Below are positions 5,872 to 57,131 of a stretch of 64,000 nucleotides of DNA, one piece after another. Position 1 is the stretch's first letter, and every line of letters begins with the position of its first letter. This DNA is from Embleya scabrispora (GTDB lineage: Bacteria; Actinomycetota; Actinomycetes; Streptomycetales; Streptomycetaceae). The notes beneath the pieces are model-generated. The model worked only from the letters and a program-made list of their open reading frames with translations. It did no database searches and was not told where the DNA came from. Location: the NCBI RefSeq assembly GCF_002024165.1, contig NZ_MWQN01000001.1, forward strand, positions 4,567,501-4,631,500. The letters are read 5' to 3'. A program made the translations under genes and the position numbers.

Positions 5872-5884
5872 CCGACAAGCCGGT

Positions 5885-6690
5885 TCCGGCCGGCACTGTG
5901 CCCTTGGTCGCGGGTGGCCGGTGCGGGGCCGGTCAGAGTCGGTGATGGGCGGCCGCCGCCGGCGTGCGGGGCTCCGAGATTCGGGCCTACCGACGAGGCG
6001 GGTGCGTTGCTCGGCGAAACCCGGCCGGCAGCGAGGGAGCGGGTGGGGGTTCGGGTCGAGTCCTCCGGGGAGCCTTCCCGAGTGGGTCGGGTGGCTTCGG
6101 AGTGCAGCGGGCAGTGGGCATGGGAGTGGCCGAGCTTCACGAAACCGGATCTCGTGGGGTGCCACAGCGCCGGACCGAGAGAAAACCGCAGGTCAGCGCT
6201 GGCGGATGGCATTGCGGGTGCCTCGGGATCCCGTTCGGCCCCCCTTGGACGCCTGTGTGAGGTCGGAGAGCGCGAAACCGGTCTCGACTCGGCACTTTCG
6301 GTCCTCACGCCGGCATCGAGGAGTCCGGAGCAACACGAAACCGGCACTCGACACCCGACTTTCCGCCTCGACCCCAAAACCGCAGGTCATCGATACCCCA
6401 GGGCCCCAGAGCACCCGTCGCGATCCGGTTGCGGCCCCAAGCACCCCGAAAACGTCCCCCAAATCACCGACCCATTCGGGAAGGCTCACCGGGAACTCGA
6501 CCCGAGCCCCCTCCTCCCCGCCGCTGCCGGCCGGGTTTCGCCGAGCAACGCACCCGCCTCGTCGGTAGGCCCGAGTCTCGGAGCCCCGCACGCCGGCGGC
6601 GGCCCACCACCGACTCTGACCGGCCCCGCACCGGCACCTCGCAACCAAAGCGCGACTCTCGCCGGGAATGCCCCGGCCGGCGTCCTTGAC
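5885..6690. repeat. composite inverted repeat, locus 1 (two arms plus centre)
   Basis: No gene is supported between 5872 and 6755. A right-pointing repeat unit (about 5890-6115, core GGCCGCCGCCGGCGTGCGG at 5950) is followed by a spacer of about 350 bp and then a left-pointing unit (about 6470-6690, core CCGCACGCCGGCGGCGG near 6588). Both arms carry the same landmarks as the 54-56 kb array: TCCGAG near the core, the segment GCGAAACCCGGCCGGCAGC, and a GGGGAGCCTTCCC-like end. The spacer shares a stretch (6331-6391) with the centre of that array in inverted order. Open frames here are by-products of GC bias. Confidence 0.85.
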
Positions 6691-6755
6691 GCCTTCCGGG
6701 GGACTCTGGCCACCATCTCCGATATCCGTGAGCGAGGGCTGAGGGCGTGTCTTCG

Positions 6756-11264: not shown

Positions 11265-11352
11265 GCGATCCGCCGCCGGCGTGCGTGACTCCGAGACTCC
11301 GGTTTCTGGCGAGGCAGGCGTGATGCTCGGCCAAAACCGGCCGGCAACGGCG
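11265..11352 (+). repeat. single degenerate copy of the 208-bp repeat core
   Basis: The 587 bp from 11043 to 11629 hold no supported gene. Within it, GATCCGCCGCCGGCGTGCG, CTCCGAGACTC and GCCAAAACCGGCCGGCAACG follow in the order and spacing of the repeat units at 54-56 kb. The rest of the stretch (tRNA-like or gene-like signals looked for) shows nothing convincing. Confidence 0.65.
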
Positions 11353-11629
11353 GGCGGTAGGGACTCGGCGGAACCCAGCCCGGCCCCCTCTCTGCCGCCC
11401 GCCGTTGGTCGCCTTTCCCCCGACCGGGGCGCCCGTCCCGACGAAAGCCCACACCCCGAAGCCCCACACCACCACCGACCCGGACCGGCGTTCTGTAGCA
11501 GGCCGAGGCGCGACTTCCTCCGCCCTGCGGTGGCCTCAAGCGCACTCGGGCCGGTACGGGCGGCAGTCGGTCTCGGGCGTCACCCGGGGCGGCTTTGCTC
11601 GGCTGTGGCCGGCGTTGGAAGCAGGTGCG

Positions 11630-38657: not shown

Positions 38658-39422
38658 GTGAGCGATTCGATCGATCTGACCGGCAAGGTGGCGATCGTCA
38701 CCGGCGCGGCGCGGGGCCAGGGTGCGGCCGAGGCGCGGTTGTTCGCCCGGCGCGGGGCCCGCGTCGTGCTGACCGATCTGCTCGAGGACGAGGGTGCCCG
38801 GGTCGCCGAGGAGATCGGCCCCGAGGCCCGGTTCGTGCGGCACGACGTGTCGAGCGCGTCGGACTGGGCGGCGGTCGTCGAGCTGGCCGTGCGGGAGTTC
38901 GGCGTGGTGGACGTGCTGGTCAACAATGCCGGGATCATGTGGACCAAGCCGATCCTGGAGGAGACGCCGGAGGGTCTGGACCGGATCCTGAAGGTCAACC
39001 TGTTCGGCGCCTTCCACGGGATCCGGGCGGTGGCACCGCTGATGCGGGCGAACGGCGGCGGGTCGATCGTGAACATCTCCTCGCTCGCCGGCCTCCAGGG
39101 CATCCCGGGACACGCGGCCTACGGCTCCTCCAAGTGGGCGGTCCGCGGCCTGACCAAGACCGCCGCCCTGGAGTTGGGCGAGTACGGGATCCGGGTCAAC
39201 TCCGTGCACCCGGGCGCCGTGGACACGCCGATGATCGGCAACCGCTTCACGCGCGGGCCGGGCAATTTCCCCACCGTGCCGCTGCGTCGGGTGGGCGAGC
39301 CGGAGGACGTCGGCGAACTGGTGGCGTTCCTGGCCTCCGACGCGTCCTCGTGGATCACCGGTACCGAGTTCGTGATCGACGGCGGTTCGATGGCGGGCAT
39401 CGTGCCGCCGGTGCAGGGGTAG
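38658..39422 (+). CDS. SDR-family oxidoreductase (first of three)
   Basis: 254 residues, classical short-chain dehydrogenase. TGAARGQG cofactor loop, D after the second strand (LTDLL, prefers NAD over NADP), NNAG, catalytic S in VNISSLAG and Y-x3-K in YGSSK, and HPGAVDTPM. GTG 38658 with GGGAGG eight bases ahead. Close paralogue of the two following genes. Confidence 0.92.
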   Translation: MSDSIDLTGKVAIVTGAARGQGAAEARLFARRGARVVLTDLLEDEGARVAEEIGPEARFVRHDVSSASDWAAVVELAVREFGVVDVLVNNAGIMWTKPILEETPEGLDRILKVNLFGAFHGIRAVAPLMRANGGGSIVNISSLAGLQGIPGHAAYGSSKWAVRGLTKTAALELGEYGIRVNSVHPGAVDTPMIGNRFTRGPGNFPTVPLRRVGEPEDVGELVAFLASDASSWITGTEFVIDGGSMAGIVPPVQG

Positions 39423-39465
39423 CGGCGGCAGCGGGGCCGGCCGACAACCGTTCGGTCGGATTTCG

Positions 39466-40309
<844 letters not shown>

Positions 40310-40408
40310 GACGGGTGATCGCGCCGCGTCCGGAGACGGGCGGGGCGGCTCCGGTGGAGGGCGTGGTGTCCGTGGACAGTGTGGACGGGGTGGACGGGGT
40401 GTGTGGGC

Positions 40409-41170
<762 letters not shown>

Positions 41171-41326
41171 GCGCGGGCCGGGGATGGGCGGGGTGCCTCG
41201 ACGAGCGCGCTCCGCGTATCCCCGGTCACCGGCGATCGGCGCCGGGAAAGGCGTTTGGAAGCGGTGCGGGGGAGCGTGTAAAGTACTCGTGGACGGGCGG
41301 GCAAGCCCACCGGCCAAGTGAATAGC

Positions 41327-41399
<73 letters not shown>

Positions 41400-41410
41400 C
41401 AGAGATGGTG

Positions 41411-45701: not shown

Positions 45702-45712
45702 CGTATTCGCGC

Positions 45713-45785
<73 letters not shown>

Positions 45786-45794
45786 CATCGCGTC

Positions 45795-53022: not shown

Positions 53023-53213
53023 ACACGTGCCGGCGGCGAGCCCCCACGACGGGACGCGTCGGCCGCACCGTGGCGCGCGCCACCCGCGTGCCGGGGCGTG
53101 GCATGGTGACCGAAAATTGATGTGTGGTGTCCCGAATCGGCGACCCGACCCCGGGTAGCCCGGGACACCGACCCCGCCCCCCTGTCGTCTCACATCCGGG
53201 TGGTTGCCCGCTC

Positions 53214-54068
53214 ATGCCGACGATGCCGACCGATCTCGCCGTGGTCACGGACTCCACGGCCTACCTGCCCGAGGAGCTCGTGGAGCGGCACCGCCTCGTG
53301 GTGGTCCCGCTCAAGGTCGTCCTGCGCGGGCGGCCGCTGGACGACGGCGTCGAGGCCACCCCGGCCCAACTCGCCGACGCCCTGCGCCAGCGCCGGATCG
53401 TGACCACCTCGCGGCCGGCGCCCGAGACGTTCGCGGAGACCTACCGCGAACTCGCCGAGAAGGGCGCCACGGGCATCGTCTCGATCCACCTCTCCAGCGA
53501 ACTCTCCGGCACGTACGAGGCGGCGCTACTGGCCGCGCGGGACGCCGAGGTACCGGTGCGGGTGGTGGACTCGCGCACGCTCGGGATGGGGATGGGCTTC
53601 GCCGTACTGGCGGCGGCCGAGGCGGCCCGGGACGGCGCCACCCTGGAGGAGGCGGCGATCGCGGCGGAAAAGCGGGCCCAGGCGGCCTCGGCCCTCTTCT
53701 ACGTCGACACACTCGAATACCTGCGCCGAGGCGGCCGGATCGGCGCGGCGGCGGCCTTCATGGGCACGGCGCTGGCGGTGAAGCCGCTGCTGCACGTGAG
53801 CGACGGCTTGGTCGGCCCAATGGAAAAGGTCCGCACATCGGCGCGCGCGATCAGCCGCCTGGAGGAACTGGCGGTCGAACACGCGGGCGCAGGCCCGGTC
53901 GACGTCGCCGTACACCACCTGGCCAGCCCGGACCGAGCGGAGGCCCTGGCCGCGCGCCTCCAGGAGCGCCTACCGAACCTGCACGAACTCTTCGTCAGCG
54001 AAGTGGGCGCGGTAATCGGCGCCCACGCGGGCCCGGGGTTGCTGGCGGTGGTGGTGTCGCCACGGTGA
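53214..54068 (+). CDS. DegV-family fatty-acid-binding protein
   Basis: 284 residues. VVTDSTAYLP opens the family, TSRPAPETF and SIHLSSELSGTYEAA bind the fatty-acid carboxylate, and LEYLRRGGRIG and KPLLHV follow in the second domain. Relatives (FakB) hand fatty acids to a kinase; no FakA gene is in the window. ATG 53214 (MPTMPTDLAVVTDST) is preferred over upstream in-frame codons. Confidence 0.93.
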   Translation: MPTMPTDLAVVTDSTAYLPEELVERHRLVVVPLKVVLRGRPLDDGVEATPAQLADALRQRRIVTTSRPAPETFAETYRELAEKGATGIVSIHLSSELSGTYEAALLAARDAEVPVRVVDSRTLGMGMGFAVLAAAEAARDGATLEEAAIAAEKRAQAASALFYVDTLEYLRRGGRIGAAAAFMGTALAVKPLLHVSDGLVGPMEKVRTSARAISRLEELAVEHAGAGPVDVAVHHLASPDRAEALAARLQERLPNLHELFVSEVGAVIGAHAGPGLLAVVVSPR

Positions 54069-54254
54069 GGGGCGTGGGCGTGGGCGCGGGCGTGGCGAGG
54101 TGGGGTGGGGTAGGCGCGGCGCGTGCTCGGGTAGGCGCGCGGTGCTGGGGTGGGGCAGGACTTAGGGGAGGCGGAAACCCGGCCGCTCGTGGTCGTGGGT
54201 GCTGCGCGTGGCGCGGGCCGGCGCGGCGGGAAAGGCAGCCTGCGGCGGTGGGAT

Positions 54255-55300
54255 GAGAGGGCGCCCGGGTCTCGTCGCCCGGCCGGCCCTTCCAAGGGGG
54301 CTAGGCGTTTTTGGCGAGCGTTGCGCTTGTGGCTGCGGGTAGCCGGTGCGGGGTCGGTCCGAGTCGGTGATGGGCCGCCGCCGGCGTTCGGGGTTCCGAG
54401 ACTCAAGGTTCCCGATGAGACAGGCGTCTTGCTCACCGAAAACCGGCTGGCAACGGGGGGCAGGGAGGGCGCTCGGGTCTCGGCGCCCGGGGAGCCTTCC
54501 CGGGCGGGTCGGGTGCTTTCGGCGGGCGTTGCGCTTGTGGTTGCGGGTGGCTGGTGCGGGGTTGGTCCGAGTCGGTGATGGGCCGCCGCCGGCGTTCGGG
54601 GTTCCGAGACTCAAGGTTCCCGATGAGACGGGCGTCTTGCTCACCGAAAACCGGCTGGCAACGGGGGGCAGGGAGGGCGCTCGGGTCTCGGCGCCCGGGG
54701 AGCCTTCCCGGGCGGGTCGGGTGCTTTCGGCGGGCGTTGCGCTTGTGGTTGCGGGTGGCTGGTGCGGGGTTGGTCCGAGTCGGTGATGGGCCGCCGCCGG
54801 CGTTCGGGGCTCCGAGACCCAAGGTCCCGATGAGACGGGCGTCTTGCTCACCGAAAACCGGCTGGCAACGGGGGCAGGGAGGGCGCTTGGTCTCGGTGCC
54901 CGAGGAGCCTTCCCGAGTGCGTCGGGTGCTTTGGGCGGGCGTTGCGCTTGTGGTTGCGGGTGGCTGGTGCGGGGTTGGTCCGGCTCAAGAGGTGGGCCGC
55001 CGCCGGCGTTCGGGGCTCCGAGGCTCAGGGTTCCCGACGAGACGGGCGTATTGCTCATCGAAAACCGGCTGGCAACGGGGGCGGGGAGGGCGCTCAGGTC
55101 GAGTCCTCCGGGCAGCCTTTCCGGGTGGGTTGGGGTGTTTCCGGGCGGGCGTGCGCGTGTGGCTGCATGGGCTGGTCCGAAAACCCGAAGGTCCCGACGA
55201 GACGGGCGCGTTGTTCGGCGAAACCCGGCCGGCAGCGGCGGTGAGGGAGAGCGGCCGGGTCGAGTCCTCCGGAGGGCTTTCGAGTGGGCCGGGGCGCTTC
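54255..55300 (+). repeat. tandem array of right-pointing 208-bp repeat units
   Basis: A partial unit (54255-54312) and five units starting at 54313, 54521, 54729, 54934 and 55144, period 205-210 bp. Landmarks in order: GGCGGGCGTTGCGCTTGTGG, GGTCCGAGTCGGTGATGGGC, the core GCCGCCGGCGTTCGGGG, TCCGAGACTCAAGG, GAGACGGGCGTCTTGCTC, ACCGAAAACCGGCTGGCAAC, GGGAGGGCGCTCGGG and GAGCCTTCCCGGGCGGGTCG. Units 2 and 3 are nearly identical; unit 5 lacks the core. No coding frame is conserved with normal start context, and indels between units are not multiples of three. Confidence 0.92.
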
Positions 55301-55529
55301 GAGGGCGTTTGAAGAGGAGTTGGGCTCGAAACCGGATCGCGATCGGTGGTTGTGGGCTTTGAGCTCCGGTGACCTGCGGTTTTGTGGTGTCGAGGTGGAA
55401 AGTCGGGCGTCGAGTGCCGGTTTCGTGTGTCCTGACCCTTCAATGGCCGCGTGGAGACCGAGATCGCCCGGTCACGCCGTCCGGTTTCGTGAACTTCCGC
55501 CCCCTTACATGCCCACCCCACCTCGAAAT
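55301..55529. repeat. centre of the composite repeat
   Basis: Unique spacer between the right- and left-pointing units. Positions 55368-55432 match 6331-6391 of locus 1 on the opposite strand (shared blocks ACCTGCGGTTTTG, AAAGTCGGGCG, CGAGTGCCGGTTTCGTG in this orientation). A second block with TTTCGTGAA near 55494 also recurs (6140-6160 inverted). So the centre is part of the element, not random spacer. Confidence 0.8.
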
Positions 55530-56160
55530 GCCCTGGCCGGCCCACTCGGAAAGGCTGCCCGGAGGACTCGACCCGAGCGCCCTCCCCGCCCCCCGTTGCC
55601 AGCCGGTTTTCGCCGAGCAATACGCCCGTCTCGTCGGGGGCTTCAGGTCTTGGAGCCCCGAACGCCGGCGGCGGCCCATCACCGACTCGGACAAACCCCG
55701 CACCGGCCACCGGCAACCCCACGCGCAACGCGCGCCGGAAACGCCCGACCCACTTGGGAAGGCTCCTCGGGCGCCGAGACTCGAGCGCCCTCCCTGCCTC
55801 CCGTTGCCAGCCGGTTTTCGGTGAGCAAGACGCCCGTCTCGTCGGGAACCTTGAGTCTCGGAGCCCCGAACGCCGGCGGCGGCCCATCACCGACTCGGAC
55901 CGACCCCGCACCGGCTACCCGCAACCACATGCGCAACGCCCGCCGAAACCACCCGACCCATTCGAAAGGTCGCCCGGAGAACCTGACCGGACAGCCCTCC
56001 CGCTGCCGGCCGCTTTTCGCCGAGCAACATGCCCGTCTGGTTGGGAGCTTCCAGCCTCGGAGCCTCGAACGCCGGCGGCGGCACATCATCGACTCGGACC
56101 AGCTCCGCACCGGCCACCCGCGACCACACGCGCAACGTGCGCCGGAAAGCCCCAACACAC
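55530..56160 (-). repeat. tandem array of left-pointing repeat units
   Basis: Three units in reverse orientation; their GGCGGGCGTTGCGC-equivalent ends lie at 55736, 55944 and 56143 (spacing 208 and 199). The outermost unit has diverged most. With the right-pointing array they form a long inverted repeat around 55301-55529. From 56161 to 56300 nothing is recognised beyond a possible comEA promoter. Confidence 0.92.
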
Positions 56161-56300
56161 CCGGAAGGCCCCTGGCCTCCGTCGAACTCAACCCCCATCC
56201 GGCACCCAAGTGGGGGCATCCGGTTTCCACAGGTTGGTTGTTGTGCACAGGTGCAGGGCGATAGCTCGGTCGGGGGATGGGTTCGGCCTAGTTTCGGGGC

Positions 56301-57131
56301 ATGTCCGGGAATTCGGCTGGTTCTTCTGCATCTCCTCCCTCGGGGTCGCCGAGGTCGGGGGCGGAGCGGGTTGCGGCGTTGTTGGGGGCGCCCGAGGTGC
56401 TTTCGGTGCAGGGGGCGGATTCGGGTCGGCGGTTGGTCGAGGCGGTTGCGGATCGGGTGCCGCCTCGGCTTCGGGTGGGTGTGGATCGGCGCGTGGTGGT
56501 TGCGGTCGCGGTGCTTGCGTTGGTGGCGGTCGCGCTGGCCGTGAGTGGGTGGTGGCGGGCGCGGCCGCAGAGTGTGGCCGCGCCCGTGGCGGTGGGGCAG
56601 GCGACGGGGGGAGCCGGGGTGGGGACACCGGTGCAGGCCGGGCCCGCGTCGGGGGTTGCCGGCGGTGCGCCGACTTCCGCGGGTGGGCCGCTTACCGTGC
56701 ATGTGGCGGGGAAGGTGGCCCGGCCCGGGGTGGTCGTCCTGCCGCCCGGGTCGAGGGTGGCGGACGCGGTGCAGGCCGCCGGGGGTGCGCTGCCGGCGGC
56801 GGATCTGGCCACGTTGAACCTGGCTCGCCCCCTGGCCGACGGCGAGCAGATCCCGGTGGGCGTCCCCGGTGCCACGCCTCCGCCCGCCGCCAATCCGTCC
56901 GGAGCCGGCTCCACCGCCTCGGCGGGAGGCGCCCCGGCAGCCGTTCTCGACCTCAACACGGCAACCGCCGCGCAGCTCGAACAACTGCCCGGCGTCGGTC
57001 CGGTCCTGGCCCGCCAGATCATCGAAAAGCGCACCCAGCTGGGCCGCTTCGCCGCCGTCGATCAACTGCGTCAGGTCCGGGGCATCGGCGATCGCAAGTA
57101 CAGCGACCTCAAGCCGAGGGTTCGGGTATGA
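56301..57131 (+). CDS. comEA: competence protein ComEA, DNA-binding
   Basis: 276 residues. Basic cytoplasmic N-terminus, a membrane helix near 74-92, an SLBB-like domain (LTVHVAGKVARPGVVVLPPG, about 130-190) and a C-terminal pair of helix-hairpin-helix motifs (LNTATAAQLEQLPGVGPVLA, DQLRQVRGIGDRKYSDLKP). Binds incoming double-stranded DNA at the membrane in competent bacteria. TAGTTT lies six bases before the ATG. Stop overlaps the comEC ATG. Confidence 0.93.
   Translation: MSGNSAGSSASPPSGSPRSGAERVAALLGAPEVLSVQGADSGRRLVEAVADRVPPRLRVGVDRRVVVAVAVLALVAVALAVSGWWRARPQSVAAPVAVGQATGGAGVGTPVQAGPASGVAGGAPTSAGGPLTVHVAGKVARPGVVVLPPGSRVADAVQAAGGALPAADLATLNLARPLADGEQIPVGVPGATPPPAANPSGAGSTASAGGAPAAVLDLNTATAAQLEQLPGVGPVLARQIIEKRTQLGRFAAVDQLRQVRGIGDRKYSDLKPRVRV

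Follow-up and report, generated by a model that had tools for sequence, protein, structure and literature searches.

What kind of sequence fills the interval between the genes for a DegV-family protein and a ComEA-like protein in Embleya scabrispora, where a first-pass annotation had described tandem units of about 208 bp arranged in two opposed arms? We analyzed the whole stretch of DNA in which this locus lies (64 kb, hereafter the window), the remainder of the genome and related genomes, using profiles of the repeated unit and of the centre between the arms. The explanation that we favour, with a probability of about 0.65, is that the locus belongs to a family of foldback-type mobile elements that carry no genes and are non-autonomous, with arms that recombine and grow by tandem duplication. 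It draws on features that are observed in this family: dispersal, a terminus at a minority of ends, site occupancy differing between species, arms of variable length, likeness of units within elements, and inverted centres.

Architecture of the copies in the window

The profile scan of the window recovered the tandem units and the two opposed arms about a centre that had been described earlier, although the copy extends over 54230-56194, so that the original span of 54255-56160 was slightly too narrow, and its centre proved to be a shortened version, measuring 195 bp compared with 331-348 bp in 33 of the 40 copies in the genome, with the second part missing. The inverted arms (433 nt) are 88% complementary, and the long hairpin that had been foreseen for a transcript is what any inverted repeat would give. 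The near-identity noted for units 2 and 3 holds at 99.5% over the aligned profile columns, and the two blocks singled out as conserved, GCCGCCGGCG and GAAAACCGGCTGGCA, both lie in well conserved parts of the unit. Growth of this composite stretch by local duplication is likewise supported. The features of the window that concern the family are as follows.

53124..54068, + strand: left neighbour, DegV-family protein (Pfam PF02645, 290 bits)
54230..56194, no strand: whole element, long-armed copy with shortened centre, between the DegV-family and comEA-like genes (unit and centre profiles)
54230..54368, + strand: left arm, outermost partial unit (profile 66-204; profile scan)
54374..54576, + strand: left arm, full unit (profile scan)
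54582..54784, + strand: left arm, full unit, 99.5% identical to 54374..54576 (profile scan, unit identities)
54789..54986, + strand: left arm, full unit (profile scan)
54995..55179, + strand: left arm, nearly full unit (profile scan)
55178..55309, + strand: left arm, innermost truncated unit (profile 24-158), joining the centre (profile scan)
55309..55503, + strand: centre, first part only (profile 2-195), the CGAAACCGGATC .. TGACCTGCGGTTTT .. CCGGTTTCG module; second module missing (centre profile)
55507..55676, - strand: right arm, innermost truncated unit (profile scan)
55681..55884, - strand: right arm, full unit (profile scan)
55889..56082, - strand: right arm, full unit (profile scan)
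56088..56194, - strand: right arm, outermost partial unit (profile 103-204; profile scan)
56301..57131, + strand: right neighbour, ComEA-like protein with SLBB and helix-hairpin-helix domains (Pfam PF10531, PF12836)
5882..6710, no strand: second, short copy, with arms at 5882-6117 and 6451-6710 (unit and centre profiles)
6136-6446, - strand: nearly full centre of the short copy (centre profile)
11270..11467, no strand: remnant, two unit pieces in opposite orientation without a centre (profile scan)

In total, the window holds two copies of the element and one remnant. The gene at 56301..57131 we take to be comEA-like. Elsewhere in the window, two tRNA-Ala (ggc) genes that are identical, edges included, lie 4.4 kb apart (41325-41401 and 45711-45787), and three similar stretches recur every ~865-880 bp at 38673-41130, apparently a tandem gene family.

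A dispersed family in Embleya

The unit proved to be dispersed both in its own genome (10.96 Mb in 8 contigs), where the search returned 159 matches, the query itself included, far beyond chance, and in a relative, Embleya hyalina NBRC 13850, with 100 matches. The matches listed for E. scabrispora fall into 24 dispersed unit-rich loci, which were fetched and mapped with the profile, and all 24 share one order: right-pointing units head to tail, a gap, and then inverted, left-pointing units. The gap measures 318-378 bp in 21 of the 24 loci, the exceptions being L050 (280), the window copy (199) and L045 (2079), the centre region of which bears a foreign insertion, and it holds a conserved, asymmetric centre of ~340 bp. 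Used as a query, this centre located 16 further loci in the genome, bringing the total to 40 copies; most of the later 16 show the same order of arm, centre and inverted arm, and several have only about one unit per arm. Units are ~205-208 bp long (66 of the 133 full-length units entered the alignment). Arm length ranges from 0 to 1.3 kb in 38 of the 40 copies (L045 and L147 aside), and the short copies L137, L138, L145 and L146 have barely more than a single arm-length of unit to either side of the centre, ~0.7-0.9 kb in total. The centre comprises two direct modules, with a mean identity among centres of 0.77 when L045, L054, L062 and L067 are left out, and its motifs CGAAACCGGATC, TGACCTGCGGTTTT and CCGGTTTCG are near-invariant in an alignment of 29 of the 40 eligible centres.

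The dnaA-bearing contig of 7.0 Mb has 25 of the copies, C2 (1.25 Mb) has 11, C3 three and C4 one, and no relation of their positions to that of dnaA was apparent by eye among the 40. Judging from their size, C2, C3 and C4 probably belong to a second replicon; in E. australiensis, according to part of its genome paper, a 7.1-Mb chromosome is accompanied by a second replicon of 4.2 Mb (PMC13152386). The genes flanking the 24 unit-rich loci are divergent at 7, co-directional at 12 and convergent at 5, as called by a crude caller that missed the comEA-like gene. At L154, one copy lies beside or inside another. Other sequences adjoin or interrupt some copies. A different palindrome of ~1.1 kb, with tandem units of ~30 bp and ~90 bp in and beside its arms, adjoins a copy at L140:4430-5501 of E. 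scabrispora, and sections of this palindrome recur in L146, L152 and L153. Insertions with open frames lie in or beside the centre at L062:4600-5740 (E. hyalina) and L045:5600-7340 (E. scabrispora); the two open frames tested, one in each, have no Pfam family.

Within the genus, E. scabrispora was compared with E. hyalina and with two further genomes, G002 and G003, which gave no unit match and one match at a contig end, respectively. In scans with stricter filters and limited candidates scored per genome, the unit model matched three of 61 genomes of the bacterial family, all Embleya, and the centre model matched four of 101, namely E. scabrispora, E. hyalina, one place in G002 and, weakly (E 6e-4), one genome of another genus, G005; the last we judge to be chance, because the match lacks arms and the stretch looks by eye like a repeated gene. 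An exact centre pattern occurs in 14 stretches of the genome collection, of which eight are from E. hyalina, each surrounded by units. The six from other organisms were taken as chance: none has units, and three match 23-35 centre positions at the pattern itself. The match in G002 is a relic with unit, centre and inverted units in order, at the same intergenic site as L035 and with flanks 87-89% identical, and we conclude that the family is old in the genus, and that in G002 it has been almost lost or has changed almost beyond recognition.

Occupancy, ends and turnover

At 13 of the first 24 E. scabrispora sites, E. hyalina carries a unit-bearing element, the evidence for five of these, at contig ends, coming from a single flank, and at the L035 site it has a diverged relative of the element. 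It has no unit at L050, L045, L036 and L034, with the flanks 10, 12, 175 and 622 bp apart, respectively; L039, where an IS3-like gene is present in E. hyalina, L042, L046 and L049 were assigned to neither class, and the sites of L047 and L051 were not located there. Eight of the later 16 copies were chosen for flank searches and six gave a probe: for L134, L136 and L146 the flanks in E. hyalina are separated by 87, 278 and 33 bp, respectively, with no unit present, no convincing site there was recovered with the L138 probe, and the L141 site was counted as neither occupied nor unit-free. None of the 12 G002 regions fetched for the first set of sites contains a unit, and six of them can be aligned at both flanks, which lie 40-133 bp from each other. 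The site of the reported copy is occupied in E. hyalina and has no element in G002 or G003. At the site of the short window copy, the left flank in E. hyalina reaches the insertion point, beyond which come 4.6 kb of different DNA containing a single weak centre-like match (E 3e-4), and this site is therefore not called empty. Small stretches at most empty sites fail to align. These differences in occupancy fit insertion, deletion in the relatives being the less simple account; the thirteen shared sites imply that many insertions are old, and that the elements may move slowly or no longer. At the L035 site, three species each have a related element of ~1.2 kb, the sequence of which has turned over; the E. 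hyalina version (L118:5893-7212) has centre modules in tandem and arms that the unit profile misses. Several contigs of the E. hyalina draft break off within these elements, or have runs of N there.

A common inverted terminus close to ACYGAGGYTTGCGC, with a consensus near ACYGAGGYTTGCGCTTKTGGTTGCGG, was found at 16 of the 79 E. scabrispora ends scanned, picked by score and position, and the nucleotide immediately outside it is a pyrimidine at all 16; the other 63 ends show no clear terminus. L137, L141 and L143 carry it at either end, and in L154 it bounds the inner copy on each side. Searched in the genome with up to 3 mismatches, the terminus pattern gave 17 matches, as against none for the reversed pattern; 16 of these lie in elements or remnants (four of which had been fetched because of the pattern search) and one is a bare terminus downstream of L133. 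At the corresponding place, internal units have TTGCGCTTGTGGTTGCGGG without the terminal ACYGAGG. Given this difference, the shared terminus and the existence of short copies of ~0.8 kb, we read the long copies as short ones with multiplied arms. The pattern has no match in E. hyalina, G002 or G003, and no clear terminus was seen at 34 E. hyalina ends scanned, even though that genome is full of elements.

No target-site duplication was visible by eye at the four two-ended copies (L137, L141, L143 and the inner copy of L154), and no transposase with a matching terminus was found, in that none of the terminus matches in E. scabrispora flanked a transposase gene recognised as its own. An autonomous partner could have weaker ends or sit in missing sequence. 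IS3-like transposase genes at or in element sites (L108:6598-7766, by Pfam, and L152:3902-4657, by eye) were considered as partners and are read as separate insertions; the one at L108 sits among short intergenic repeats of the type CCTCAAGCGCCGGCCGGGCTG. At L133:3606-7488 of E. scabrispora, two facing termini lie 3.9 kb apart, the bare terminus being 3.3 kb beyond the L133 centre, and enclose what we take from the translation to be an aminopeptidase-like gene and a serine-recombinase-like fragment. This locus is either one cargo-bearing element or two remnants.

Units were compared pairwise using the 141 of 275 unit matches that have at least 185 aligned columns, with both genomes pooled for the comparisons within elements. 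Identity within an arm is 0.86 for adjacent units (73 pairs) and 0.83 for non-adjacent ones (50 pairs), and between opposite arms it is 0.86 for units of equal rank (38 pairs) and 0.84 for other ranks (99 pairs), compared with 0.79 between elements of E. scabrispora (5443 pairs), 0.77 between those of E. hyalina (529) and 0.76 across the genomes (3638). The nearest relative of 107 E. scabrispora units lies in the same arm in 45 cases, in the opposite arm of the same element in 30, and in another element in 32. The most economical reading of these sequence likenesses is exchange within an element across both arms, with some exchange among elements. Elements at the same site in the two species are no closer (0.745, 94 pairs) than those elsewhere (0.755, 1232 pairs), and the three pairs of centres compared at shared sites show no extra closeness either; most of the shared sites have flanks that are 92-97% identical, and one has flanks 88% identical, so that the sequences at fixed sites have turned over. 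Of 11 site pairs, six could be read and five could not; in two of the six (L032/L063 and L052/L068) the centre points the opposite way with respect to the flanks, which is what recombination between inverted arms would give. The lengths of left and right arms are weakly correlated over the 40 copies (r 0.29, p 0.047); r is 0.61, reached in 0 of 20000 permutations, when L045, with its foreign insertion, and L147, with a distant extra match, are excluded, and this value depends on the exclusion.

In the mechanism that we propose, a basic copy of ~0.8 kb, with two inverted arms of ~210 bp, a short common terminus where it is preserved and an asymmetric centre of 340 bp, would insert between genes, presumably moved by a transposase acting in trans. 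Once inserted, a copy would gain arm length when the 208-bp segment is duplicated in tandem and lose it when a segment drops out, and recombination of one arm with the other would probably keep them alike and sometimes flip the centre. The repeated arm segment may hold repeated recognition sites. The family is probably mainly selfish, and a host role may exist as well. Our confidence in this explanation was lowered slightly, to the value given at the outset, by the presence of the terminus at a minority of ends and by the L145 site, which is not clearly empty.

Alternative explanations and known systems

The centre has kept a near-constant length despite a mean identity of 0.77, its three motifs are near-invariant, and the L035 site retains a related element of ~1.2 kb in three species despite sequence turnover. 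These properties would also be expected of a chromosomal structural satellite, that is, of dispersed sites for a nucleoid-associated or partition protein, each consisting of a core with inverted tandem flanks and kept by selection. Such a satellite is nevertheless unlikely, as G002 has a single relic and no unit match, the occupied sites differ between species, and the density is uneven, with 25 of the 40 copies on the 7.0-Mb contig, 11 on the far smaller C2 and no visible relation to dnaA. Quite improbable, too, is the idea that arms and centre are separate repeats joined by recombination at prone sites and never transposed as a unit: the tandem centre modules of L118, with arms missed by the unit profile, the outer ends that mostly have no terminus and the lack of a visible target duplication are compatible with it, but the arm-centre-inverted arm order at all 24 first loci and most of the 16 later ones, the terminus common to 16 ends and the sites unoccupied in relatives all argue against it.

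That the elements are transcribed into a regulatory or structural RNA, or into a long hairpin that acts on the neighbouring genes, we regard as very unlikely. The long complementary arms would suit this, at 5 of the 22 predicted pairs in the unit at least one sequence has both sides changed, and the centre consensus folds at -35.1, 1.4 standard deviations below 40 column shuffles; this excess is within the range of the shuffles, however, and the unit, at -12.5, folds no better than its column shuffles (mean -14.6), so that neither part supports a structured RNA beyond shuffles. On its reverse strand, which lay outside that comparison, the centre folds at -38.5. Rfam yielded only two matches at gathering score in the window, both to tRNA, and the mixed orientations of the neighbouring genes lend no support to a terminator or to a role linked to orientation. 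Decayed or unusual coding sequence is the least credible of the origins considered: long open frames are present in this G+C-rich DNA, but the spacing between units is spread over the three classes modulo 3 (31, 24 and 22 of 77), and variability does not differ significantly among positions modulo 3 (p 0.24). Gene calling placed no gene within the 24 E. scabrispora elements, and called frames overlap two of the 16 E. hyalina loci (L060 and L062). The first-pass annotation was thus right to call the stretch non-coding. Its remark that it knew of no described family with these blocks also held, given the Rfam result and the absence of matches in the plasmid and phage collections, which also leaves no sign of a plasmid or phage origin.

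The likeness to BIME/REP mosaics suggested at first sight was not supported. REPs are described, in part of the source, as palindromes of 20-40 bp (PMC3733652). Like them, the Embleya units are repeated, intergenic and present in both orientations, but the unit is several times longer, at 208 bp, and contains no conserved hairpin, and the short copies suggest a single inverted-repeat element with multiplied arms rather than a mosaic of small palindromes. BOX elements have short internal modules in variable number; unlike the Embleya element, they lack long opposed arms. They appear in passages of one source as an interspersed repeat of Streptococcus pneumoniae (PMC3049150). Prokaryotic MITEs, as portrayed in part of a review, are non-coding, with inverted ends and tens of intergenic copies presumed to be moved in trans, measure 50-500 bp and have direct repeats at the target (PMC10969869). 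The Embleya element shares with them a non-coding body, intergenic spread and, at 16 of the 79 ends, a terminal inverted repeat, but it is larger (~0.8 to >2 kb, the shortest complete copies being ~0.8 kb, with arms of up to 1.3 kb), and no target duplication was seen at the four two-ended copies. BrickBuilt of Porphyromonas gingivalis is presented in excerpts of its description as a MITE with a 23-bp minisatellite and 19 copies (PMC4596501); both it and the Embleya element are bacterial and have internal tandem repeats, but those of Embleya are 208 bp long and form opposed arms.

The foldback elements of eukaryotes are closer in architecture. Passages of a study on the Galileo and FB foldback-like transposons of Drosophila describe very long inverted arms with internal tandem repeats of varying number, which measure ~210 bp inside the arms of Galileo subfamily F, and discuss secondary transposase sites within the arm repeats (PMC3573991). 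As in Embleya, the arms expand and contract and many copies lack a full coding sequence (PMC3573991, the same passages). Correspondingly, all 24 unit-rich loci have long inverted arms of tandem repeats about a centre, and arm length varies by repeat number among the 40 copies. The difference is that Galileo and FB are eukaryotic members of the P superfamily with a known transposase, whereas the Embleya element is bacterial and neither its transposase nor a target duplication was found. In the open-access literature, with few subscription papers, we saw neither this family nor any bacterial foldback element with tandem arms described, and the words palindrome and intergenic are absent from the available portion of the Embleya genome paper (PMC13152386). 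Tentatively, this could be the first bacterial foldback-type mobile element: specific to its genus, with satellite-like evolution of the arms (tandem growth, homogenisation of both arms and turnover at fixed sites) and recombination between the arms that flips the centre, spread on both large replicons of Embleya, and mobilised by an enzyme whose action produces no target duplication.

Satellite-like arms on foldback elements are a theme of eukaryotic genomes. In bacteria, long inverted repeats are generally regarded as unstable, yet this genome keeps about forty. On the practical side, the elements interrupt the draft assembly of E. hyalina, at contig ends and runs of N. The family offers material for asking how long inverted repeats survive in a bacterium, how the tandem arms of an inverted pair stay similar to each other, and what enzyme could move such elements without a target duplication.
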